64,000 bases of DNA from Certhia americana (lineage: Eukaryota; Chordata; Aves; Passeriformes; Certhiidae), in NCBI GenBank assembly GCA_018697195.1, contig CM031864.1, positions 19,669,316 to 19,733,315 of the forward strand. The letters are read 5' to 3'. The stretch's first letter is position 1, and each line of letters opens with the position of its first letter. The notes below the pieces were generated by a model. The model did no database searches. It was given only the letters and a program-made list of their open reading frames with translations, and was not told where the DNA came from. This document shows positions 8,282-37,298 of this stretch, one piece after another. The position numbers and the translations under genes are program-made.

Positions 8282-8326
8282 ATGGAGGAAGCCGAATTGC
8301 TGAAAGAAAGATTCCAGGCCATAACA
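8282..8326 (+). CDS. PALMD: PALMD coding exon 1
   Basis: It encodes residues 1-15 (MEEAELLKERFQAIT). The acceptor TTTGTAG ends one base before the ATG and the donor is ACA|GTAAGT, phase 0. The start is fixed by identity with the family N terminus. The exon carries a single 5' UTR base (8281). Confidence 0.94.
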
Positions 8327-11300: not shown

Positions 11301-14300
11301 TGAATAGGTTCCTTATTATACAGTTTGTTTAAAATGCACTAATTTCTGCTTTTATACTCATATTTCTTTCTGCACAGTAGTTTATGTACAAATACTCATT
11401 TCAGACTGCCCAAACTCCTATTACATCTCCAGTGGTGCAAAAAAATAATTGACTTAGAATAAACCAAGTAAAAGTTCATTCTCTGGCTAAAAATCTTATC
11501 CAGAACTTTAGAAAAGACAAAAAAGAGTTTTTCTTAAGTATCCTAATAATCTGTAAACACAAGCTCTTGTAATCTGTAAACACCACTCATCTATGATGAG
11601 TTATTTAAAGGCCATTTATACCATGAGATCAGGAATATTTCCTAAGTAAGGAAAAGTGTGAAGATCAGAGACCAGATAGCCAGTCCTGATTTTGAAGACA
11701 GAGTAAGAAAAATCCAGCATAGCAGCTTTTGGATAAAGTCCCTCACAAGAGTCATTGCAGAAAAATTACACATTGTAGTGATCCTAAATCAGTAACTTTG
11801 TTAATTGTATTAAAGAGCATTGGCAAAACACAAAACCATTGCAGAGACAAAAATAGCATGCATTTTGAGGAAAGAGCCCCACCTGTTCTGTTTGGAGTAT
11901 TAAAAGGCAGACTAACACCATCAAGGAAAAATTGTAAAGGGTTTATAAATAATATATAAATATTATATTATATATATTAAATATATTTTATAAATAAAAT
12001 ATAAATAAACCATACTTTGCAGACTGCGAGAGATCAGGGGCACTCTGATGTTCACCTACTGAATCCCAGCAGAGTATCAGTAGTGCCTGACCAGCCTGTA
12101 CCCTGCCCTCAGTCCCATAAAGCTTGGTGCCTTCTTACACTTCCTCTCCTATCCTTCAGAAAAGTGTCCTTAGAGTCTGTGGCCCCGCTGCTAAGTTCTA
12201 ATTTCCAGTAACAGTGAAGTGATTCAGCCAAGCACACCACATCTCTTCCTGTTTCCAAATCCCAGGGAAATGGTGGAGAACAACTCCCAGCCTTATGTCC
12301 AGCACTTCCTAACTGACTTTCTCCAGTCCTCACACACAGCTGGTTCCACAGGTGGGCTGAAAGGGCAAGGCTCTTCCTCTGTTTGCAAAGAAGTTAACTC
12401 CTTCCGAAACTACACTTGTCTGAAAACAGACTCTTTATAAAGAAAGCTATCACTTTTCTAACAGAGCCAAGCTGTTCTAATTGAAAGGAAAGAGGGATTA
12501 GCCTCCAGTCAACAAACATTTCTGCACAGGACAACAGAAGATTCCATTTACTTCCCTAAAATGTAACAAGAAACAAGTACAAATGTTTCTTGATTGGCAC
12601 ATGGCAAGGTGCCATGCCCAATAACAGAATTTTATACCATCAAGGCAGACCAAAACAATAGCCTACTAATACACCTTATTAAAGTTACTTTCCTTTGGCA
12701 TGATTCCTTCCCCCCTGGCTGCTGAGGACACAAGGTACTAAATCAGTTTTTGGCCTCACACAGAGGAGCCACAAGGTTACTCCATGTGACAGTGTTATCC
12801 AAAAACAGGAGAGACTCAAGCATTGCCAGCATTCAGACATTGCTCACCCATTTCCTTTTTTCTCTAATCTGTAATAAAAATGATTAAGGTGGCACTAGGA
12901 TAGACCAGCACTACACAAGGTTTTTCCTACTTAAGATCAGCAGTCATGGAAACAGCCTGCACACAAACAATTTTTTTTTTTTTAATTGAGAGGTAGCAGC
13001 AACATATATGAAGTATATCACAATTCTCTTTTCTCATCTTTACCATTATTTGACAAACAAAATAAATTTCTAAAGTCTTTGTTTATTCCTGTTTATTTCA
13101 GCTATTAGCCACAGGATACATAAACTGAGTGCTGGATTCACTGACAGCCCATTTCATTCAGTGATGTATCACAGCTGCTCAGTGGAGACCATGCAGACTC
13201 TTTCCTCTCCTAAACGATGCGTGGGCTGCCTTAGGAATTTTGGTCAGGACCCAGTTTTAGTCTCACTCTGCATGTACAATTCTGCTCAACTCTACTTTCT
13301 TCCTGGTTTTGCCCCCAACCCTTCCCAAGACTAAATAATTTTTATTTTGCATCATCCCTCCTTTGTGGTCATTAACACATTTAAATGTACTTTAGAGAAA
13401 AATGGTGGAAACCATACCTGTGTTGGATCAAATTATTGCTGCAAAGAATTATGCACTGCCTAAGCACCACATAAGCTATAAAATAAGGCTTTATTTGCAT
13501 GGATTGATTTCACCCCACTGAACAACACTTAAGTAATAATTTTATTAACAAGCAATTTCTCTAAACAAAGTTTTATTGTTCTTAATTTGTAGGACAAAAG
13601 AAAACTGCAAGAAGAAATTACACAGAAACGTCTAAAAGTAGAAGAGGAAAAAATGAAACACCAACATTTAAAGGTCAGTAAAGTGTAAGATTTATGTAAC
13701 TAAAGATAGCCTCAAGTCATACAGCACGAAAAAAGGCTGGGGATTTTGGAATGCAAATCTTCATGCATTTAAGTCGTGCTTTTACTGTCAAATCTTCACA
13801 GCTTTGTGGAGTCTTGCCAGGACTCCATTTGACTTTAATAAGCATCACTCTTTGAAAAAAATTACACTGGGGAGCTAATGTTACTTGATCACTTTCATGG
13901 CATAAAATGAGATCATAACCAGGAAAAACTCACCGATGAAAATCAAGCCTCACATTTCAGACTGGGTGTGTTCACTCCCTAATCCCACAACAGCCACCTC
14001 ACTTGGTACAGGGTGCATCACAATCATGAGGTCTAATTGCATTTTTTCCTAGAAAAAACCCAACCTATTTATTTGGCTTAGGCATTTGTCAGCTTGTTTA
14101 ATTATTCTTTAAAAAAATAATGCTGTTTCTTTGTATATCTAAAAAAAGGGAAAAAAAACATAAATGTTACAAATATTGTTCTCAAATATGGCCTGGTAAA
14201 CTCAGGATTACGAAGTTCAAAGGAATAAGAAACATAAAGATCCATCTGTGTAGAGAATTGAAATTGCAGTGATTTCTACCCAACACCACTATTCTTAAAA

Positions 14301-17300: not shown

Positions 17301-20300
17301 GCTTTTATTTCATTAGAGCCTAAAACACAACTACCAGGAAGTGCTGCCAAGTGATTCTACAGAGTCAAGGCTCAGGACATCAGTTTTGAGCAAGCTATGT
17401 TTACCAACAACATTTCCTAGGATCCAGTGTTGAGAGAGACAGAATACTGTCCTGCAGGCTAAGGCAACTGTAAACATTGCTCTTACATCCCACAAGAAAA
17501 AAATTAAAAGCACCATGGACTGCACAGACTCCTCAGCAAGCCTGTTTTAGACACACTTTCTATGACATTATATGTCAAGTGGAAAATTGCTTTGAACTGC
17601 AATAAGGTCCTACATATATATTCCTCTGCCAGTTTGGCCTCAGTAGTAACCTCATGGAAAGTACACAATAAATAGAAAAGTGTAGGAGGAAGCAACATTT
17701 TAAGTAACTCAACACAGGATGCAGGCAGGGATTCCAACAGCCCCTGCAAGCAGCACTGTTAATGCAGCCTTCTCACCAGAGCTGGGCACAGGCTGCCTCA
17801 AGCACCAGTAGTCAAAATTCAATGTAATCTGCATCCACATCCTGCAATTAACAAAACTGTATGGGGGGGAAACCAAAATCTTAACATGGAAATTACACAG
17901 CTCAAGGAATCTAAATTATAACTGGGACATCCATGGTTAATTAAAGACTTTATATGTGTGTTCCTTTTTTGCCTGTTGAAAGAGTATTTCTAGAGTCCCA
18001 GCTCCTTCCCCAAGGTAGCAACTGCATTTATACCCGAGTTAGACTGAAGGGAGTAAAAAGAGCACAAGAAAGTTGGCATGGTTTACAAGTTTTAGCCTGC
18101 AAATATCAATTTATCTCCAAGAATATATTTTTTTATATCAGTATTTTTGAGAGCTCTGATGACTTTCAGGTACCACCTTTCCTAGTGTAAAGCAGCTGTA
18201 GGAAGAAATCAGTGCATACAACTGTATTTTTCAGAATTTGAAAACATATCAGAGAGATACACTTGCCTGTGCACATAATACACCCATTTATAGGCCACCA
18301 CTGCACAGAAAGAACTCCACAGGCACTAACCAGATCAGGACCTAAATACTTACGTTCTGGATTGGCCTTGCAACAGCAGCTCTAAACACACAGTAAGTGC
18401 TGAAACACTAACCAGGCATCAGCTGCCCATGCTCCTCCTTTCCATTGCCCCTCTTACCCCACACATCTTCACCAGCTGAAATGTGAGTTCACTCTCATAA
18501 GTACACAGGATCTTTGTAAGTTCCAGGGGTAGCACTGCATCATTAACTCACTAGAGATCTCTTAGTCCTGTACAATCTTATTTACAGAAACTTCTCAGGC
18601 TTTATACCTCCTTCCAGAAGGTATGCAATGTCAGGATCACGGAAATTAGGGCTATTGAAATAAAACTGTTGTGCTTCTGACTGAAGCCTTTCACATCAGT
18701 CTGTTATATGTATGGCTTTACAACTGGTTTGCTTTATTGAAAACAAACAAACCACTAGATCCACTTACCCATCTTAATCTGTTTCAGACAGCAACTGACA
18801 TACTCCACATTTTTGTTGGATGAAGTAATAAAATGGCACATTGTTCCTAAAGATTTTGCTTCTAAGTCAATTCAGAACACAGAAGTTGTTTAGCATTTCT
18901 CTTCTACTGGCACTCACTGCAGACAGGTTGCCTTATGCTGGATAGATCACTTCTGTGGTATCAAGACAAATACAGCAAATGGTTAAATACTCTAACTTTT
19001 AGCATTCGCTTCCTTGTCTATTTTTCCCCATCAGAAAAAGGTCTTGCGAGAAAAATGGCTTTTGGATGGCTTTAGTTCTATGACTCCAAAAGAAGAAGAA
19101 GAAATGCAAAAGCAGAATCAGGAGGATCAACAACGGACTCATGAGCTGGAACAAGACATTTTCAGGTAGGGGAGTATCCCTGTCCTTGTGTCTGGGTTAA
19201 AATTGTCCCATCTTAAAAGTCCTACCTTATTTTGTAAAAGATAAAAATGTCAACAAGTACAGAGTAAAGCAATTCTTGTCATGTTTTCTAGTCACTCAGA
19301 ATCAGAGATTACAGAATGCAATTTCCATACTGTAAACTGCAAAAAACTGCACAATAACTATATTGCAGAGTATTTGTTTCTCTAATTCCAGATATCCTTT
19401 CCATGCTGTATTCAGTAGGTGGAAGTCACAACATACGGGGTTTGCTCTGAAATAGTAATTGTTGAATCAATTCAAAGAAAACTATTTTGAAAGTTTTTCG
19501 GTTTCACTAGGTCCTGGCACAGCCTTTAATACCTGACTTTCACCATAACAGCACTTCAGAACAGTACAGGCTCCCTAGCCCCATTAGTAACATTTATCTT
19601 GTGTTTTCCATGTGTTTTGTACTCAATTTAGTCCCAGAAACCTGCTATAGCAAAAGTCTTTTTTTACCTTTCATCAGAGATGTTTCTACAAATCTCATTG
19701 CCTAATGCTTCCCTATCACCCAGGACTAACGTTTAGCTGCAGAGACAGTCTCATCAAAGAGTCCTATTTACTATGGCCATGGTTCCAGGTGCTTATTAGC
19801 TCCAGCTAGCCCTTCTCAAACACCACAGAGCTGTGCACACAGTCAGCTCCTTTCCTGGGTCCAGGCATACTGACTGGTATGACCCCTTAGCACACATAGA
19901 AAAGATAACATGCTCCTGTTCTTTTAGATTCTGGAAAGTTTCATCATCCTTTTTCAGTGCTTCTTCCTCTTTTTCAATTCAATAGCATTTTCCTCTCTAC
20001 TTTTCTTCCACTGTCCTCCTACACACACTCTTTAGGCAAAGCTGTCACCAAGATTACCTTCTCTGGTGCTCTCCCATCCTCTTCCCTCCTTACTCCATCT
20101 CTGACACAGATAATAATTCTCTTGGTTGACAGGTAGCAGCCTAGTGCTAGTTCGTCCTATAATTATGCTGACTTTTTGCTCAAAAGCATTTTTCTCTACA
20201 GAACATCTTTTTACACACCTCTGTAGGATTCATTGTTGCAGTGGTAGGAGGTAGACAGCATGCCCTGAAAACATCCCAGGAAGCTGTCATTTTGAAGGCA

Positions 20301-23300: not shown

Positions 23301-26300
23301 CTTTGTCTCAGATCATCTGACTGCTCTCAGCAAAACATGGTATCAGCTGCAGCTGCCTTAGGTCTACAGTCATCGATTTCCAGCATGGATTAAAAAAAGA
23401 AATAGAAGGCATATTTCACTCAAATTTAGAAGCTTTTAAAATTTCCTTTTTTTTTTTTCTTAAAGTTAAAATAAGTTCTTTTAAAAAAAACCAGGAGACT
23501 AAAGTTATATAGCATTAACCTATGGCATAAGACATTCAGTTCAAGTTCCATTTCAGAGTAAAATCTTGAGTTGGATTCTAGATCTTCATGGAAAATTGAC
23601 TTCCCAACGACTCAGCTAATAAGGTAAATTGCATCTAAAACCCAACAAATATGCACTTATGCAGAAAAGAGTAGTCTTGACTAGAAAGAATAAAAAATAG
23701 GAAACAGGACGCCTGCTTAAGTCACTGCTTTACTCAATGGAGAAAAATTTCACCAAGATACTTTATGTTAGCAGAGTGCTTTACACCCAAACAACCAGGA
23801 ATAGCTTTCTCCCTCTCTGACACAGAGATTCAATTTTTTATCTTGGACCTTTCTGTCTAGAAGTGTTTGTCACACACTAAGAAAATTAAAATTCTCATCG
23901 AGAAAAAAGGTAACTTAATCATTGTACTCAGCTTTAACGTGCAAGAAACCATACAACATAGACTTAACACATCAGAAGGACAGGGAAAGGAGCTATAACA
24001 TAAAATCCTACAGTGAGTGTCAATAAACAAAAAGAAATTTTGACTCCTAAACTTCAATATTCCTTTCACATAAAAATAAAGAGTTTTAAAAGAAAATAGT
24101 TAACCCATCAGCTGAGGCCTATCTGACAAAATAGTTCAAGTTTACTTGTGGAAGACTTTGTTTGTTGTTGGGTTTGGGTTTCTTTCTTTTTAAATGAAAA
24201 CACTATTTCACACTTATTTCCCAATGTGTGTGAAATTTTAAGTTGATCTCATAAGAGCAAAGTTTGTCAAGGTAAGTAGAACCAGCTCTACTAATGTCCA
24301 TATTCCCATATGTCCATACTCCCATAGAGTTGCATCAACTCTACAATGTTGTTCTCTGTCTAGTATTAAATCAAATGCAACTGTGATTGCAGGCTGGAGA
24401 AGGAAATTGAGGCTCTGGAAAGACAAGAAACGGAAGTCTCAGCTAAAGAAGAAGCAATTTTAAAGAAACTGAAGTCTATTGAGAAAACAACAGAAGACAT
24501 AATAAAGGTTAGTGCTATATTATGCCAGAAATAGAATTTATTATTCAATCATCATCATATCTAGGGAAAGGAGAACTAGCTGGATCCCATGAGTGGTCAT
24601 GAGCTTTTGTCTGAAGTGACAGCAGTTCAAACACAAGAGAGGTCAAGATGTTACATTGTTTAAGTGCCCATGTGTCTCCATTTGCTTATTTATGGGGGTG
24701 GGGGAGCAATTTTTCTCTTTACTCATGTACAGCATATCTCTAAAAACAGCCCTGCCACTGACACCCAGCAACTTCACATCTCAGCCAGAGACAGACACAC
24801 CAGCTACAGAGGCTGGTTAGTCATGCTCCTTCAGGTGGCATGCCCAGCTAAACTGCATCATGCCCTCCCACCAAGTCCTTGACAGAGATTATGAAGCATA
24901 TTTATGTTATCAGCCGTTAGTCTTTGTCAAAAGGTAATTTTAATATTTTTTAAATCATCATAAACCATCTCAAGAAATACAGTGATGAAACTAAACTTCA
25001 GTTCACCAGCTGTTCTTACGTACACACACACATTATCTGAAAATATACAGGGAGATAAGCAAAATTGGAAAGCCAAAGTAGGACCTTTAAAAAAAATCTT
25101 TTGACACCAACCAGGTTGGGCCACAGTAGGCTAGGTCACTGATTAACACTTCATAATATTATTGTCCTTCCCTGTGTGACTTGGAATCATATTGGCAAAA
25201 GACCACAGAAATTTCACTTTCTCACTCTCCATGCTCCAACTGAGCACATTTCACTTTTAGCCCCTTCTCTGTATGAAGCTGTGCACACAAAAGGTTAAAA
25301 CTATCAGGGAAACCAAAGCACTTTCTAGTTAGTAATTTAAAAGTAACTATCACATTTATTGTTAATGGTTCTCTTTCCCACCTAGTCTGTGAAGACTGAA
25401 AAAGCTGGATTTGAAAAAGGTACGTTTAGTCAAAAGACTATTTTTTAAAAGGTTCTTGTAGCAGTAAGTTAAAACATACTAATGCTTTGTGGATCTGTGG
25501 ATCTTCTTTACTCAGAGGCAGCAGACTACATATATGCCAGCATCCCTGACCTTCCCAAGTATTTCAGACCCTCTGCATTGAGAAGTACAGCACATGCTGA
25601 CATGGATGATGAAGAAAAGAGAAAAGGTACTGCTGATTAGTAACTCCAAAAGGTGTCAATACGTACAAAAGCTTCCCATATATTGAATCTAATACACTTT
25701 AAGCAAAGAATAGACATTACAGATATCCAACATTTGTTCTCATTTAAGCTGTGTTACCCATTAGGTCATCAAAACTGAGAGGTGAGACTGTAGTGTAAGG
25801 TATGTGCCACTGAGAATAACTCTTTTCACCACTGACACTTCTTTCCAGCACTTCATTCCTCTGCCTCTCATAAGTACAGACTTCCTTCAAATCATTCATT
25901 TCACATTTTCTATCTGCACTTACAGCTGTTGGGTAGCCAGCAGTAGTCTGGTTATTTCCCAACTACTACAAAGTCTCCTAACCCTTTCAGAGTGCTCAAG
26001 AGTCTCTGGCATCACAGCACACTGAGCTCTTCCAACTGCTATTGCCCAGTATAATGCCTGGGGCCAAGGTTAAATCTGGATTTTTCAGCCTATCATGTAA
26101 GGAAAACTACATCTACTAATGAAATCTCAGCAGCCAATTTTTCCTCACAGAATGAAAATATTTTTTCCACAGGATAAAAGGGGACATTCAAAATGAGATC
26201 TAATATATTGGCTGTGTATGCGATAATTTCATATATTTAATAGTTTGTTCAGACAGTTCTCTATCACTGTCAGAACTTCTATGTTTCTTGCAGCTACTGC

Positions 26301-29300
26301 AATACCAGTTTAAGCATTTATTTCTTTCAACAGCATTGTTTGCCATGGAAATTAAGGTCGAAAAAGACATGAAGACAGGCGAAAACACAGTGTTATCAAC
26401 AATACCACTTCCCTCAAAGGAGTTCAAAGAGACAGGGATTAAAGTCTATGATGATGGCAGGAAGTCAGTCTATGCTGTGTCCTCAAATGGGAGCACAACA
26501 CAAAATGGGATGGATGAACTTGCTCCTGTTGAAGTGGAAGATCTGCTGCGGCAGGCAACTGAAAAAAATTCTCAGTCTCCCACAGAGTACCATGAACCTG
26601 TCTTTGCAAACAAATTCTGCAGGCCAGTTACTCCTCAGAAAGAAAAATTAGTCCCTGGACCAAAACCAGAAGGCACTGACAAAAAAGAGATGAATGGATT
26701 TAGCAATCATCAAACAGGGTTCTCCTCCAAAACAGAGCCCTTTATGCAGCAAAATAAAGAAAATGGCCTTGATCTTCCAAAGGTAATACAACCAAAGTCT
26801 CCCTCTCCAATAATTTCCCATACAGAGAAGAAAGTGCACACTAATCCTGAGAACAGGATGACTCATAATGAAGAAAGAAATGCTGCACATGAGGAATTAA
26901 AACCTTACCAGATTACAAGGGAAAGACATAGTGAGACAAGGTTTTTAAATCCCTGTCATCCTAATGAAGCATCCCCTGCCCCTCAAGACGAGGAAGATGT
27001 TCGGTACAACATTGTCCAGGCTGTGCCTTGTTACGTGGATGAGTCTGAACCTGTGACAATGGTTTTCATGGGCTATCAGCGCATTGATGATGATGACACA
27101 GAAGCAAACCAGGAGCTGTCCCCATACGATGGGGTTATCCATGCAGAACTAGTTATCATTGATGACGATGATGAAGATGACAGCAAATCTGAGAAACCAG
27201 CATATCATCCCATAGGCCATTATAGTCAAGTTTACCAGCCACCAAACAGGAAAATCACAGAAGCCCAACAGACAAACCCTGTGAGCACTCTGGGTGCAAG
27301 CCTGAACAAGGTACCCCACAAAAATTCCATCTCCCTACAAGAACAGGAGGAATGCTTAAGCTCACCAACACACCATGCTCATCTTCACAGCCAGATGTCT
27401 GGAGATGGTACAGAAGATCCCTCCCTAACAGGTAACAGAAAAGGAAAATCCTGTCACTGCTGTTTGCTCATGTAGCAAATTGATATTGCTCTTATCTGCT
27501 GGCAACTGTGTCACTTCTTATAGCGTTTGGATTGTTTCAGACTAATACGCTATTAATATTTTTTTTGCTCTTGCTTGTTAACAAATACCAACCTCCATTT
27601 TGGATCTGTTGAATTATTTTGTCTTAGCAATGCGCTAGTTACCACATCAAAATTTGGAAAATAAACTAATCACAGAAGTGCCATTGCTTTTTTATTTGAA
27701 GTAACCTTCAAAGATTAAAAGATGTTCTCTTTCAAGTTCCACTAATGCTACCAAAATTAATAGAATTAGTTTTCATTTCTTGCAGGTAACTAACAGCATT
27801 GCTACTTAACAATTCCTCCTCTCTCACTGGCATGTTTTTCTGCCTGTCTGCATTCCAACTAGTTCCTAGATCATCCACATTACTCCTTAAATAAGAAAGA
27901 CTTCTTAATAAACAGCTTTACTTTGTATTTTTGAGAAATCAACCTTGCCAACATTGTCTTGATAGTGCTTATGCAAGTTTTAACATTTTTTCATTAACTG
28001 AGTTAGACATTTTTATAGCTTCTGAAAGATAATGGAACAGTTTCCATCACTACACACTGTTAGTCCAGTAGTCCAGTTATTTTTGAATACTTTTTATATG
28101 CTATTAATACATACAGCATCTATTTCTTACTATAAAGTTTTATAATAAAAGTTTGAAAGCAATAGCAAAATCTTTCAGAAACATACAAAACTCTTCTTTA
28201 TGATTATGTTGCACTTTAATGTATGCAATTAAACTCCATTTAAATATACTTACACAGCAGCAGATTTCAGAGAATAGTCACATTCCACTTGAAGGAAAGA
28301 ACATTCTGGTTGAATTACAGGAAGATGAGGGGTCCTGATCTTCTCTCCCTCCAGCCAATTTGCAGCAAAAATGTTAGCTTAGACCCTGCCTAAAGCTGTG
28401 GAATTGACAGCCCAGGAATTCTTTACACTACATGTAAATCCAGGAGAGAGAATGACCTTTGGATCATGTAAGAAATTTCAAATATTTTTGCATCAGTAGG
28501 CAGTGATTGGGAAGAGCTGTTCAGCAAGCAAGGCTCTCAGCTTCTAAGAGTATCAACATCACGGAGTCATGCACACAACAGTCAGAAATATTCCAGCAGT
28601 GCTGCCCATGCTTTCTGATCAATCAGGCCACTGCACTTTTCCATTGCTTGAGAGGACCTTTGCTTTCCTTAAGCACCAACTGGAAGCAGAAGTAGTTAGA
28701 ACAGGCAAGATAAACCCCTCGAGAAGCTGCTCCAGCCCATTATGTTATGGGGATGGTCCCTTAATTCCCCCATCACATAAGTATAGGATAATGGAGAAGG
28801 GACACTCACCTACCCACCAGCAGGTTTCTGCTGAGACAGGGTATCCATCTTACAGCCTGCTGAGTGGGTGCTCCTGAACAGATCCTGGGAAAGAGTTGTC
28901 CAGGTAGTAACTGCCAGCTGGCAGTCCCATTCAGGTGAGCCATACCCAGCCCATGAGATGTTAGCTGAGCACCTCTATCCATACCAACCCCCGCTTTTTT
29001 TGTCTCTCAGGAGAAGCATCTGAAATCCCTACATTTTTCCCCTTCCACTCAGGCATTTCCCAAATGATCTGGGTTTTCTCCCATTTGAGGTTAGTGGAAA
29101 ACAAATACTGAATTTCAGAAAAGGGCACTAAGTGCAAGTAGAGTGAAAATATTTGAGACTCTGTCCTGTAAATCTGTATTTGTATTTGGTCTCAGCCATT
29201 TGCTTAGAACTATTCCACCAATAAGAAAACGGCTAACTGGGAAAAATGGGTCCCAGCTAAATTACAAGGAGTTTGGCAATTGCCTTAAAAATTCCCCCAG

Positions 29301-31590
29301 GCAGCACTGCCTCCAAGTGTGTATCTTGATGCCTAGTAGCATTTGGAACTAAGCCATATTCTTCTTTAGCCCCCCACTTATTTATTGCCACTCCCTGGGA
29401 CATTTTTGATCAGTGGAAAAAGCCAGGAAGTGACTCAATCTTTCCCAAACAGCCCTATAATCCTACCGAGACTTCTAAAAGGGAAACAAAATCAGGAAAG
29501 CCTCTCAATCTAGAACAATGTATTATACAAAGCTGTTTCTTAGAGAAATATATTGTTTTCAAAGCAGTCATTGATGCCCACCCTAGCAGGTTCACCCTAA
29601 AGGCCACTAGAGAAAAGAGCGGAGGATATTATTTTGACTCATCCTTCATTACTAAAACAACAAACAGTAAAACAGAAAAACTAATCCTCTCAGAAACTAA
29701 ACCTTTGGGAAGCACTTGCAGCATTTAAGCATTAAACAAGCACTGAAGACTCTGAAAGAAAATGGAAAGCAAAGAAGCACAGGACAGAACAGCATGATGG
29801 TCCCTTATGTAACGATTTTTCTTCAGGAAAGAAATAAACCTTTAGAACAAGTTAGTGAATTAGTTAGCAATGGCCAAGGACAAGGAAGCAGAAGCATTGT
29901 TCCATGTGTCAATCTATACAGAAACATATCAGATTAAATTAGGAGTTTTCATGCCCACAATCTTACAAAGATGTAGGACATACCTCTTTCCATATAGAAG
30001 CAATTTTCCTTCCCCCACAAGCTCCATTTCCCACCAATATCTCAAAGTATGTGCCCTCAGAAAAAGCACACAGAGAAAAGGATGACAACACTATAATTGG
30101 TGCATCCATATTTGCATTATTAGACCTTATTTTCTTCTTTAAATTTCAGGCAAATTAAATCAAGTGCAAATGTTTTGAAGATGCAATATTCATTAGGGAA
30201 ATGAAAAGTCCTTGGGAGGGAACAAAGGCTAGACATAGTGAAATGAATAAGGAAATGCAAAACTAAAGCTGAATAAGCAGCAAAACCTACTGACAGTGTG
30301 GAACAGGCTCTCACGGGACACAAAGGTCCAAGGCTTTTGGCAGCTAGCTAGTCTAGATGAGCTTTTTTTTTTCCTACCACTGGAAGCTTTGCAACCTTCA
30401 AAAAACACAATGGAGACACCTCCATTTGTGTTGAAGAACGTAAAATACAAAAGTCCTTTTTAATAAAGATTCATGCACACCATCTGTTTCTGTAATGTAT
30501 AGAGCAATACAAAAAAAGACTATGAGCAATAAGTGAGGCATCAAACTGACTGTTCTCAAACCATGACCAGGGCTTGAATCCTTCAGGATTCCTCAGCCTG
30601 TAAAAAGTACACAGTGTCTTTGTAAGAGCTAAGGTTAACATCAGTGGCTCTGTGATATAAAGTTACACTCAGATGCTTCTATGATTTGCATCAACTTCAG
30701 CATTCAAAACATAATTTGAGTTGGACATTTGCTGACATGTGTAAATCAAGTAAACAGCTGCTTTGACCCCTCGTGTCTCAGCAGAGAGACAAATGCAGGG
30801 TGCAGGAATGAGACGTGCTATTTTTGGTGACTCTTCAAACTAACAGGTCAGAGTAATGGAGATTAATCCCATTGCATTCTCAGATCAACAATGTGCTGGG
30901 GGGAGGCTTTTGCATGTCAAACAACGGCATTATATTGCTGTTCTAAAAATATCCTTAACGTTATATCATTGCTGTCCCTTCCAAACTTACCCACATTATA
31001 GCCAGGTACAGACAACAGCCATACCAATGTTTATACAGGTACTGTTACTGCTTCAGATGAAATCAGGAATGTGACTAACTCCCACTCTGACTCACAGCAC
31101 CGGGAAGAGAGCAAAGTTTTTTCTGAGCATCACAGAAAAGGAAAAGGTTTTTCCAAACAGTTACAGCTCCCACTGAGGAGTTTAGATTAAACAAAGGGCT
31201 TGTTTAATTATTCATGCATCCTTTTAATCTGTCAGCATCCAGTCAAGGGCAAAACCAACTCTGTGTAATGTGTTAGTGAAGGTAACAGAGACAAAACAGA
31301 AGATAGCTGTGCTAATTTTTAAATAGCAATTTTGGAGTAATTTCTTAATATACTCACTTTATTAAAAAATTGCAAGAACTAACACCTTCTACTGATTTCT
31401 TTCTGTAACACTAAAACAATGCTTATTCTGCTGGATTAACCACTGGAGGTATGTGTGTTCTTCATTTTTCCTAAATAAGGAGATTTTACTTCAGAAATAG
31501 AAAGGAATACTTAAAATGCAATGGCTTTGTTTGTTTATTTTTGCAGCTCTGAGGATGAGAATGGCAAAGCTGGGGAAAAAGGTGCTTTAA
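8282..31590 (+). CDS. PALMD: Palmdelphin (whole coding span, eight coding exons)
   Basis: Joining 8282-8326, 13593-13673, 19035-19165, 24393-24507, 25386-25419, 25516-25626, 26334-27431 and 31547-31590 gives 1659 nt, a 552-residue protein plus stop. Human palmdelphin is 551 residues. It is recognised from the start MEEAELLKERFQAIT, the Lys/Glu-rich coiled coil (about residues 1-125), the paralemmin motif VYDDGRKSVYAV (about residues 210-221), and the late blocks EDVRYNIV, EPVTMVFMGYQ, HAELVIIDDDD, YHPIGHYSQVYQP and HKNSISLQEQEE. It ends LRMRMAKLGKKVL. Palmdelphin is a cytosolic, peripheral-membrane member of the paralemmin family linked to cell shape and myogenic or endothelial functions (family knowledge). 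This spliced form has no CaaX box, as in mammals. All introns are GT-AG and every phase closes. It is convergent with FRRS1. Confidence 0.95.
9280..9325. repeat. 20-bp direct repeat rich in TAAT cores
   Basis: GGAATCTAATAGGTTTTAAT (9280-9299) and GGAATCTAATTGGTTTTAAT (9306-9325) differ at one base. Confidence 0.8.
11943..12009. repeat. A/T-only low-complexity tract
   Basis: Near-pure TATAAATA/ATATTA sequence of about 67 bases inside the first PALMD coding intron. Confidence 0.85.
13593..13673 (+). CDS. PALMD: PALMD coding exon 2
   Basis: It encodes residues 16-42 (DKRKLQEEITQKR...KHQHLK), 27 codons, phase 0 at both ends. The acceptor is TTAATTTGTAG and the donor AAG|GTCAGT. It is strongly charged and heptad-like, part of the N-terminal coiled coil. 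The order and length match human palmdelphin. Confidence 0.95.
13674..19034 (+). other. PALMD: PALMD intron after coding exon 2
   Basis: A 5.4 kb AT-rich intron. The 15240-15310 stretch is a TATAC/TTTAAATATA low-complexity patch. Nothing else was recognised. Confidence 0.85.
19035..19165 (+). CDS. PALMD: PALMD coding exon 3
   Basis: It encodes residues 43-85 plus two bases of codon 86: KKVLREKWLLDGF, then a Glu/Gln-rich helix to EQDIF. The acceptor follows TTTTTCCCCATCAG and the donor is TTCAG|GTAGGG. The motif REKWLLDG is a paralemmin-family signature. The phase-2 end joins directly to the exon at 24393, or through the candidate cassette at 22489. Confidence 0.95.
22489..22602 (+). CDS. PALMD: Candidate in-frame cassette exon of PALMD
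   Basis: A pyrimidine tract (about 22455-22484) followed by TTCAAG makes a strong acceptor, and GTGAGT starts at 22603. The enclosed 114 nt is a multiple of three with phase 2 at both ends, exactly the phase of the junction it interrupts. In that frame it is open for 38 codons. It reads SIPKIFPPLRTPVHPEMF, then a hydrophobic end KLTIFQPIMLL. It would insert a proline-rich segment between residues 85 and 87 of the coiled coil. I do not recognise the sequence as a known palmdelphin segment. It could be a pseudo-exon. The splice sites and phase are seen; use of the exon is inferred. Confidence 0.33.
24295..24326. repeat. 16-bp tandem duplication near a PALMD acceptor
   Basis: TGTCCATATTCCCATA is followed directly by TGTCCATACTCCCATA. 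A small inverted repeat GAGTTG-CAT-CAACTC follows at 24327-24341. Confidence 0.8.
24393..24507 (+). CDS. PALMD: PALMD coding exon 4
   Basis: It completes Arg86 and encodes residues 87-124, LEKEIEALER... to KTTEDIIK. The acceptor is GATTGCAG and the donor AAG|GTTAGT. It is the C-terminal half of the coiled coil. AILKKLKSIE-TTEDII matches the palmdelphin family closely. Confidence 0.95.
24508..25385 (+). other. PALMD: PALMD intron after coding exon 4
   Basis: A short AT-rich intron with no recognised content. Confidence 0.85.
25386..25419 (+). CDS. PALMD: PALMD coding exon 5 (microexon)
   Basis: A 34-nt exon encoding SVKTEKAGFEK (residues 125-135) plus one base of codon 136. The acceptor is TTTCCCACCTAG and the donor G|GTACGT. 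It is too short for any ORF listing and is placed by phase and by family resemblance (human begins SVKVE). Confidence 0.9.
25516..25626 (+). CDS. PALMD: PALMD coding exon 6
   Basis: It completes Glu136 and encodes residues 137-172, AADYIYASIPDLPKYFRP... to DDEEKRK. The acceptor is TTTACTCAG and the donor AAAG|GTACTG. The IYA-IPDLPK block is conserved in palmdelphin. Confidence 0.93.
25627..26333 (+). other. PALMD: PALMD intron after coding exon 6
   Basis: A 707-bp intron with a TTTCTTTCAACAG acceptor. No further content was recognised. Confidence 0.85.
26334..27431 (+). CDS. PALMD: PALMD coding exon 7 (large exon)
   Basis: It completes Ala173 and encodes residues 174-538 plus one base of codon 539. 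It opens LFAMEIKVEKDMKTGENT and carries IKVYDDGRKSVYAV, the LAPVEVEDLLRQATEKNSQS block, the acidic stretch IIDDDDEDDSKSE, and the end GDGTEDPSLT. The open frame runs upstream of the acceptor to 26288, but that part is intron. The normal donor is ACAG|GTAACA at 27432. If the donor is ignored the frame stays open to a stop at 27473-27475 (see the alternative tail). Confidence 0.96.
27432..27475 (+). CDS. PALMD: Alternative CaaX C-terminal tail of PALMD (read-through of exon 7 donor)
   Basis: Reading past the exon 7 donor adds GNRKGKSCHCCLLM and a stop, 14 residues, the same number as the spliced ending from codon 539 on. Either form is therefore 552 residues. The ending is basic residues, C-x-C-C, then a CaaX box C-L-L-M. 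That is the arrangement of the lipidated C terminus of paralemmin-1, where the CaaX cysteine is prenylated and neighbouring cysteines are palmitoylated (family knowledge). Met in the last position favours farnesylation. AATAAA at 27660 could end such a transcript. The sequence is seen; expression and lipidation are inferred. Confidence 0.55.
27660..27665 (+). terminator. PALMD: AATAAA poly(A) signal for the CaaX isoform
   Basis: AATAAA lies 185 bases after the read-through stop. A T-rich element (TTGCTTTTTTATTT) follows about 20 bases later, as expected around a cleavage site. AATAAA also occurs at 27907-27912 and 28144-28149 as alternatives. Confidence 0.35.
31547..31590 (+). CDS. PALMD: PALMD coding exon 8 (last)
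   Basis: It completes Ala539 and encodes LRMRMAKLGKKVL and TAA. The acceptor is TTATTTTTGCAG. The ending matches human palmdelphin (LRMRMAKLGKKVI) in all but the last residue, which fixes the main isoform without a CaaX box. Confidence 0.96.
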
Positions 31591-32035
31591 CAGCTGTAAT
31601 GACATGGAAGTAAAATTTGCCACTCAAAGCAGATAAAGCTAAGAAGACTTTCTTCCACATACTTTTCCTGGATCATAATACTTGGTTTGCTACTCTGTTT
31701 CATGGGTTATTTTGCCCTCTGCATAATGCAATGGACTTCAAAAGACTTTCAGAGTTGACCAACTGCCACATACACACAAATCACATCCTGGATTTTGTCA
31801 AAAGTAGTGGGAAGTTACCTAAGGCCATAAATGAAGTGTATATACAAGTATGAAGACACGTGCATACCTGTTCTAACAATCAGAAATATGCTGTTGCTAT
31901 ATACACAGAGCAGATAAACACCAATCTCCATGGATCTCCATGGGACATTGTTCCACATTAAAGTGTGCCAATCTATCTGATTTTGACTGAAAATGCTGTT
32001 CCAGCATTCATTTTTTAAAAGCATTGCTTAATAAA
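31591..32035 (+). other. PALMD: PALMD 3' UTR
   Basis: Untranslated sequence from the TAA to the first AATAAA (32030-32035). A longer UTR using later signals is possible. Confidence 0.6.
32030..32035 (+). terminator. PALMD: Probable PALMD poly(A) signal
   Basis: AATAAA 440 bases after the stop codon, followed by GTGAGAGAGG within about 15 bases. It is the first canonical signal after the main stop. Confidence 0.55.
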
Positions 32036-35000: not shown

Positions 35001-37298
35001 CAAGTCTTTCTTTCAATCAATTAAGCTACAATACTGCACATAATGACGCCCGTAAGAAATTAGACAATACTGCAAGCAGTGAGAAGAAAAAGGTTATCCA
35101 GAGCAACTGACAATTTTGCCAGTTTTAAAGTTGTATTAGATGTGGAACAAAGACTTTTTTTTTTTTCTTGAGGAAAAGAAACTACTATAAAAAGTGACAC
35201 TATTTAACATTCAATTTCAATAATAAGTTTCTCCAGGAAGGATTTACGTAACTTTAATTTATAAAACAACATCTACAAAACCCAGACAATCCATTTTGCT
35301 CCTAGGCAAGACTTATCCAGTTTCCTTTTGACAGCATTTTCACATTACTAAAAGGGACAAGAACTTTTATTGAGATATTTACATTCATGTTTTAAAACCC
35401 ATGTTCATTGTCACACATAAATGAAACAACCCTCAGTACAGCTATTGTATTACAGAAAGAATTTGGCATTAAGGTTAATTTAAAAAACCATCAATCATGC
35501 CTTGGTTGAGTGGTTTTTCCTCTAAACTCACAGAAGACGCAAGAGCCCCACAAAACTTTAGCAGTAGATGAGCCTGAGATTCCCAGGCTTTTGAGATCAG
35601 AGTTCTCTAAAAAAACCTCACACCCACACAGTTGGCCCCATGCTTCTTGTCCTTCAGCCTGGGTTGTGACTCATTTCTTTGTAGACTCCCTTTCCCAATC
35701 TACACATGACTTTTCTAAGGGAGATGATTCAACTTGGATTTAGTCAGCTGCTGCTAACAAAGGGTCTAATCCCAGCTCCATAACTGTCCTTATGGCTAAA
35801 TCAGATATGTGAGCAGCCAAAAGATCTGAATTCAAACAAATCTGTAGCTTCCTGAATATTACCTGTCCATGCAACAGGCTGTACTATGGACTTTGGGAAG
35901 GTGGGAGAAGAAACAGAACCAGACAGCTTTGGTTAACTGCAGAGAGCCACCACCTGACCCACACTTACAAGTATTTTAGAGCTGGCCACACTTGCAGAGA
36001 TGTTGCTGGAAAAGTCTATAACAAGTGAGGCCTCACTACTCACTAGTCTATCCAATATTCCCAACACCTTCATTCCCCAGTAGGCCTAGCTGAAAAATAC
36101 ATCTTGAACTGTTACAACTAAAAATCGATACTTTTCAGCAAGAAAAATGAAGACCTGTGGGAGCAAGCTGTTCATAGCCACAAAACAACTGCAAAGTACT
36201 GTAACTGCACTGCACATTAAGGTTTCATTTCCAGAATGCCATTTCAAGAGTATTCTTCCATACTTAGGCAAACCATGTACAAAATACGTGAAATGATAGT
36301 CTCTTTCTAGTCTCTGCACCTAGTTCAGATATTTGGAGAAACCTTTTGTTGACTAAAAAATTGCCCTCCAATATTCTTTCAGAATAGAATTCTTATAGTT
36401 CTGTGTTCTAGATATGCCAACTCAAAGGACTCTCACTCAACACTAACAGAAGCTGCTTTTCCTGAAGTCAACCTAGCTCCCAATTTACATTTCGCTCAAT
36501 AGCACAAATACAACTGCAACATTCCAGAGCAAGTATTTTCACTTCCATTAAAGCATCAGTTGGAATAAATCCATCTTATTCACATAGTCAAGTAATTCAG
36601 AAGCCACAAGCAACCAGACAGTAAAAGAGAAATCCACAAACACAGCTAGCTTCTTCCTGGTTTGAGTTTTAGATAAGTTATGATAGGTTTAATGCATTTA
36701 TATTGCAAACATGTTTTCTCTTTATGACTCAGAAGCACCAAGAGGGATATGAGAGCAGTATTTTGAGTGAGGCAAATGACGGTCTTCTTAAAGGCCTGAA
36801 GTTCCTAAACTCCTGTGCTTCTTGTGTAAGTATACTTAGAGCAGACAGTGCTTTTCACATTTTACTTTTTTCTATTTAGCTCATGAATCAATCTGCATTT
36901 GTGACAATCTTTCACTAAGTTTTGTGGTTTGTTTGGTTGGGTGTTTCTTTATGCACAAAACTGTCAAGAGTAGGAAGCTGGCATATCACGTATTAGAACA
37001 CAGTGAAGTGGACAAATTAATCTGGATCAGTCATATCTTACCAGTTCACCCAATAATATTTACAAAAGGTTTAGGAAACTGACTATCCAAATAACATTTT
37101 CAGCACATCTTCTCAGTCTTCACCTATAAGCCTCAATCAAGTTAACTAGTGTGCTTAAAAAATAGAGATTTCTTTCCTTACTCAGGCAAAAGTTCCTGTT
37201 GAAAGTCCCATCAGAAGACAGCTTTTGTAGGACTGCAGGATTCCTCTCTAGATTTGAATTCCAAATCTCCCTAACACTGAGCATGACATGCATGTGCT
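32036..37298. other. Tail-to-tail intergenic region PALMD / FRRS1
   Basis: About 5.3 kb between two convergent genes. It includes an A/C-rich simple tract (about 32427-32510), a TTG run near 33185-33200 and a T-run at about 35156-35166. No recognisable gene or transposon. Open frames of 60-113 codons look like chance. Part of it may be FRRS1 3' UTR if the proximal poly(A) signal is not the main one. Confidence 0.7.
32427..32510. repeat. A/C-rich low-complexity tract
   Basis: Irregular AACCAAACAAAAAACC-type units. They produce the Lys/Pro/Asn-rich open frame from 32397, which is compositional, not a gene. Confidence 0.7.

Follow-up and report, generated by a model that had tools for sequence, protein, structure and literature searches.

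Does the palmdelphin gene of Certhia americana specify one protein or two, a soluble form and a form that could be held at a membrane by lipids? The gene (PALMD) lies on the + strand of the window, by which we mean the whole 64,000-nucleotide stretch analysed here (contig CM031864.1, positions 19,669,316 to 19,733,315, assembly GCA_018697195.1). Its large coding exon, exon G of Hultqvist et al. 2012, can end in two ways. We conclude that these two endings almost certainly correspond to the alternative 3′ end already described for palmdelphin.

The boundary of exon G reads ...ccctaacag/gtaacaga..., with the final exon base at 27431 and the donor GT at 27432-27433. When the donor is ignored, the reading frame continues for 14 codons (27431-27472, GNRKGKSCHCCLLM), the first of which is split by the donor, and closes with TAG at 27473-27475. 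The last four codons (27461-27472) form a CaaX box, CLLM. When the donor is used, exon G is joined to exon H, which starts at 31547 after the acceptor ...tttttgcag and, counting the split G, runs as ALRMRMAKLGKKVL through 31587 to a TAA stop at 31588-31590. The spliced C-terminus is thus SLT-ALRMRMAKLGKKVL and the unspliced one SLT-GNRKGKSCHCCLLM, each tail measuring 14 residues. The exon H ending is KKVL (31576-31587) in this species and not KKVI, so that a DNA pattern for exact KKVI followed by TAA or TAG had no match in the window; exon H was located through six-frame translation after that pattern gave nothing.

Both forms come to 552 residues, a length obtained by exon arithmetic and not by full assembly. 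The annotated palmdelphin P0004 has 564 residues, and its 27-residue alternative start was swapped for the 15 residues encoded by the first coding exon; P0004 and the exons of the window have equal lengths on both sides, except at a short intron which tblastn translated as if it were coding. The first-pass annotation, made from the letters alone, had placed the 14 extra residues and the stop beyond the donor correctly, and its proposal of two 552-residue forms agrees with this arithmetic. The ending it gave for mammalian palmdelphin was AKLGKKVI; exon H of the window has leucine as its final residue.

That this gene is palmdelphin, a member of the paralemmin family, is indicated by sequence comparison. 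The region 26345-27472 matches the Pfam family PF03285 (Paralemmin) with an E value of 5.1e-34 and 118.7 bits, the cut-off being 27.3. Among the best 120 of 535 matches to a query made of exon G and the tail, the best is PALMD of Passerina amoena, with 93% identity over 100% of the query. The named ones of the eight top-listed homologues in the same 120 are all songbirds. Moreover, annotated bird palmdelphin and the window agree exon by exon in tblastn. A search of solved structures gave no match up to E 1.

The two-ended gene is already described, chicken included, and the novelty of the finding is low. Hultqvist et al. 2012 (PMC3405040) report two splice variants of palmdelphin, distinguished by the CaaX motif or by exon H with KKVI; the soluble variant is the more frequent. 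Both forms occur in mammals, where the soluble form predominates. A CaaX motif is given there for all paralemmin sequences save teleost PALMD-A, and teleost palmdelphin-B is described with only two cysteines. According to the figure legend, the alignment species include human, mouse, chicken and frog; text and legend conflict over which variant entered the tree alignment, which leaves the existence of both variants unaffected. PMC5288731 states that most Palmd mRNAs encode KKVI and that one human CaaX cDNA was found, citing Hu et al. 2001. PMC11887803 reports that the lipid-anchored Palmd variant co-immunoprecipitates with adducin, and PMC13081730, citing Kalebic et al. 2019, that PALMD-CAAX was introduced into ferret cortex. 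The passage of PMC6629864 that concerns palmdelphin names it in basal radial glia and says nothing on its endings. This published two-variant literature establishes the main idea of the first-pass annotation, that one gene yields a soluble and a paralemmin-like anchored protein, and shows that it was mistaken in taking mammalian palmdelphin to be without the tail.

Is the tail kept in relatives? We collected 136 homologues, namely the best 120 of the 535 matches and 16 new records from two further searches, with overlaps removed. The queries of these searches were the tail ends of P0120 (18 matches) and of the tortoise record P0106 (15 matches). Endings were classed by what comes after the end of exon G, the full-tail class being set by length alone and not by its cysteines. 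Of the 136 homologues, 26 extend beyond the donor by a complete tail of 14 residues; like all others from this set, this count is not a frequency, as the first query included the tail and the later queries came from its matches. Named birds contribute 17 of the full tails, with an owl, a parrot, a tinamou, fowl and other groups represented besides songbirds; the rest come from one tortoise, one lizard and seven further records. Among the genera are Passerina, Aphelocoma, Strigops, Bubo, Pavo, Eudromia, Gopherus (the tortoise) and Zootoca (the lizard). Contrary to the earlier claim, an ending carried by the database records of so many birds is not hidden. The named matches of the P0120 and P0106 tail-end searches are only reptiles and birds, so the tails of mammals, frog and fish rest on the cited passages of PMC3405040.

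Numbered back from the end, G(-14), S(-8), C(-5), C(-4) and M(-1) are invariant in 26/26 full tails. Position -3, within the CaaX box, is S in 21, T in three and L in two, and 20 of the 26 collected tails end in CSLM. At the level of protein sequence the tail is therefore conserved. Exon H follows directly on the end of exon G in 61/136 homologues (52 KKVI, 4 KKVL, 2 KKMI, 2 KRVI and 1 KKVM), and KKVL, as in Certhia americana, is found in P0004 (Agelaius), P0113 (Geospiza), P0017 and the turtle record P0109. One record, P0107, ends far upstream.

The annotated palmdelphin isoform X1 of Varanus komodoensis (P0124) differs: exon H follows only after four residues beyond the donor (SLTGKKPALRMRMAKLGKKVI), which would fit the use of a second donor roughly 12 bases inside the CaaX tail.

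Strings of this kind do exist. Across the window's 127,996 codon positions in six frames, the pattern C.CC... followed by a stop occurs twice, the CaaX tail included, and the second occurrence lies at 35277 on the - strand. When every GT was tested in each phase, 7 of 20,391 tests ran into one of these endings with no more than 22 open codons between; since the window has just two such endings, these seven are overlapping tests of the same two. The conservation in relatives is a stronger argument than these window statistics. A tail kept at the same place in distant relatives, and a CaaX ending of the same gene already in print (PMC3405040), leave next to no probability that a CaaX-like string is coded by accident at an ordinary intron start. 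We reject a chance origin on the conservation of the tail across birds, tortoise and lizard, in agreement with the earlier judgement that chance was unlikely. The accompanying suggestion of an old ending kept as an alternative is supported by the same animals and by the CaaX motif reported across paralemmins, save teleost palmdelphin-A (PMC3405040).

Conservation by descent could also leave a fossil: a tail kept in the DNA, hardly ever transcribed in birds, with only the exon H form being made. The greater frequency of the soluble form (PMC3405040), the single human CaaX cDNA mentioned in PMC5288731 and the tails without the first cysteine would fit this. However, the identity of C(-5), C(-4) and M(-1) in every full tail from birds, tortoise and lizard is unlikely for an unused intron start, and we regard the fossil as very improbable. 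The CaaX ending is real and, judging from sequence conservation, very probably functional.

Besides the make-up of the queries described above, several observations limit the case for a functional CaaX ending. Position -7 is C in 19/26 tails, R in 5/26 and H in 2/26. The first of the three cysteines is therefore missing in 7/26, among them the four records that are squamate or squamate-like (P0119-P0122), so that CxCC as a whole is not a fixed pattern. Conservation in relatives, whose absence would have told against the first-pass annotation, is seen at the protein level for C(-5), C(-4) and M(-1) and is incomplete for the first cysteine. Tail-bearing records mostly look like automatic predictions, and many are labelled partial. 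Furthermore, 39/136 homologues stop short of the full tail, with 3 to 12 residues beyond the donor (GNR being the last three in 36), and 8/136 end at the donor. These 47 records speak neither for nor against the full tail; P0059, with 12 residues past the donor, extends as far as CRCCL. Finally, the hexamer scan lists 12 AATAAA or ATTAAA within 27401-31700, so that the three candidate polyadenylation hexamers of Table 1 are weak evidence for the end of a CaaX transcript.

How would the two proteins arise and differ? Use of the donor at 27432 would join exon G to exon H and yield the soluble protein ending in ALRMRMAKLGKKVL. If the donor were left unused and the transcript ended inside the intron, exon G would continue into GNRKGKSCHCCLLM. 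The cysteine of CLLM would then be prenylated and the two nearby cysteines palmitoylated, by analogy with paralemmin-1. In the CaaX pathway in general, the last three residues are removed. The lipidated form would be anchored at the inner face of the plasma membrane. For Certhia americana we infer transcript use, polyadenylation in the intron and lipidation from these known cases.

The remainder of the gene is summarised in Table 1, with coding exons placed by tblastn with annotated bird palmdelphins. The stretch REKWLLDGF is probably the paralemmin motif. A possible alternative first coding exon lies at 12270-12323 (MVENNSQPYVQHFLTDFL), with 89% identity to the first 18 residues of P0004 (Agelaius palmdelphin), a record without the usual MEEAELL start.

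Table 1. PALMD exons, alternative endings and candidate polyadenylation signals in the window
Feature	Position	Strand	Basis
First PALMD coding exon, MEEAELLKERFQAIT	8282..8326	+	tblastn with first 40 residues of P0019, 15/15 identical; 3′ bound alignment-derived
PALMD coding exon, DKRKLQEEITQKRLKVEEEKMKHQHLK	13593..13673	+	tblastn with P0004, P0001, P0003, P0017; alignment-derived bounds
PALMD coding exon containing ...REKWLLDGF...	19032..19166	+	tblastn
PALMD coding exon	24391..24507	+	tblastn; alignment-derived bounds
Two PALMD coding exons, run together by tblastn over a short intron	25386..25628	+	32-residue alignment gap with stops
Exon G (naming of Hultqvist 2012), the large PALMD exon	26333..27431	+	5′ bound tblastn, 3′ bound donor
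CaaX tail, extension of exon G with donor ignored, GNRKGKSCHCCLLM + TAG	27431..27475	+	direct reading frame
Three candidate polyadenylation hexamers, AATAAA	27660, 27907, 28144 (27660..28149)	+	hexamer scan
Exon H coding part, soluble ending; split G + exon H = ALRMRMAKLGKKVL, then TAA	31547..31590	+	six-frame translation, tblastn

The value of the result is mainly that of a check: a real and very probably functional alternative ending was recognised from raw sequence. Its biological yield is a further bird in the published pattern (PMC3405040) whereby palmdelphin can be either soluble or membrane-bound.

When compared with the palmdelphin splice variant described in PMC3405040, the gene of Certhia americana is the same, with a CaaX tail or an exon H ending. 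Compared with the collected relatives, it differs by CLLM, where 20/26 have CSLM, and by KKVL, where 52/61 have KKVI; both are small, lineage-level changes. That CLLM and the change from KKVI to KKVL shift the balance between the palmdelphin forms, or the kind of lipid, in this songbird lineage relative to other birds seems highly doubtful. The likeness to paralemmin-1 (PALM1), here compared by description, lies in a C-terminal cluster of three lipidated cysteines together with a CaaX box (PMC11887803). Whereas this anchor is the regular C-terminus of PALM1, that of PALMD is the alternative and rarer one (PMC3405040).
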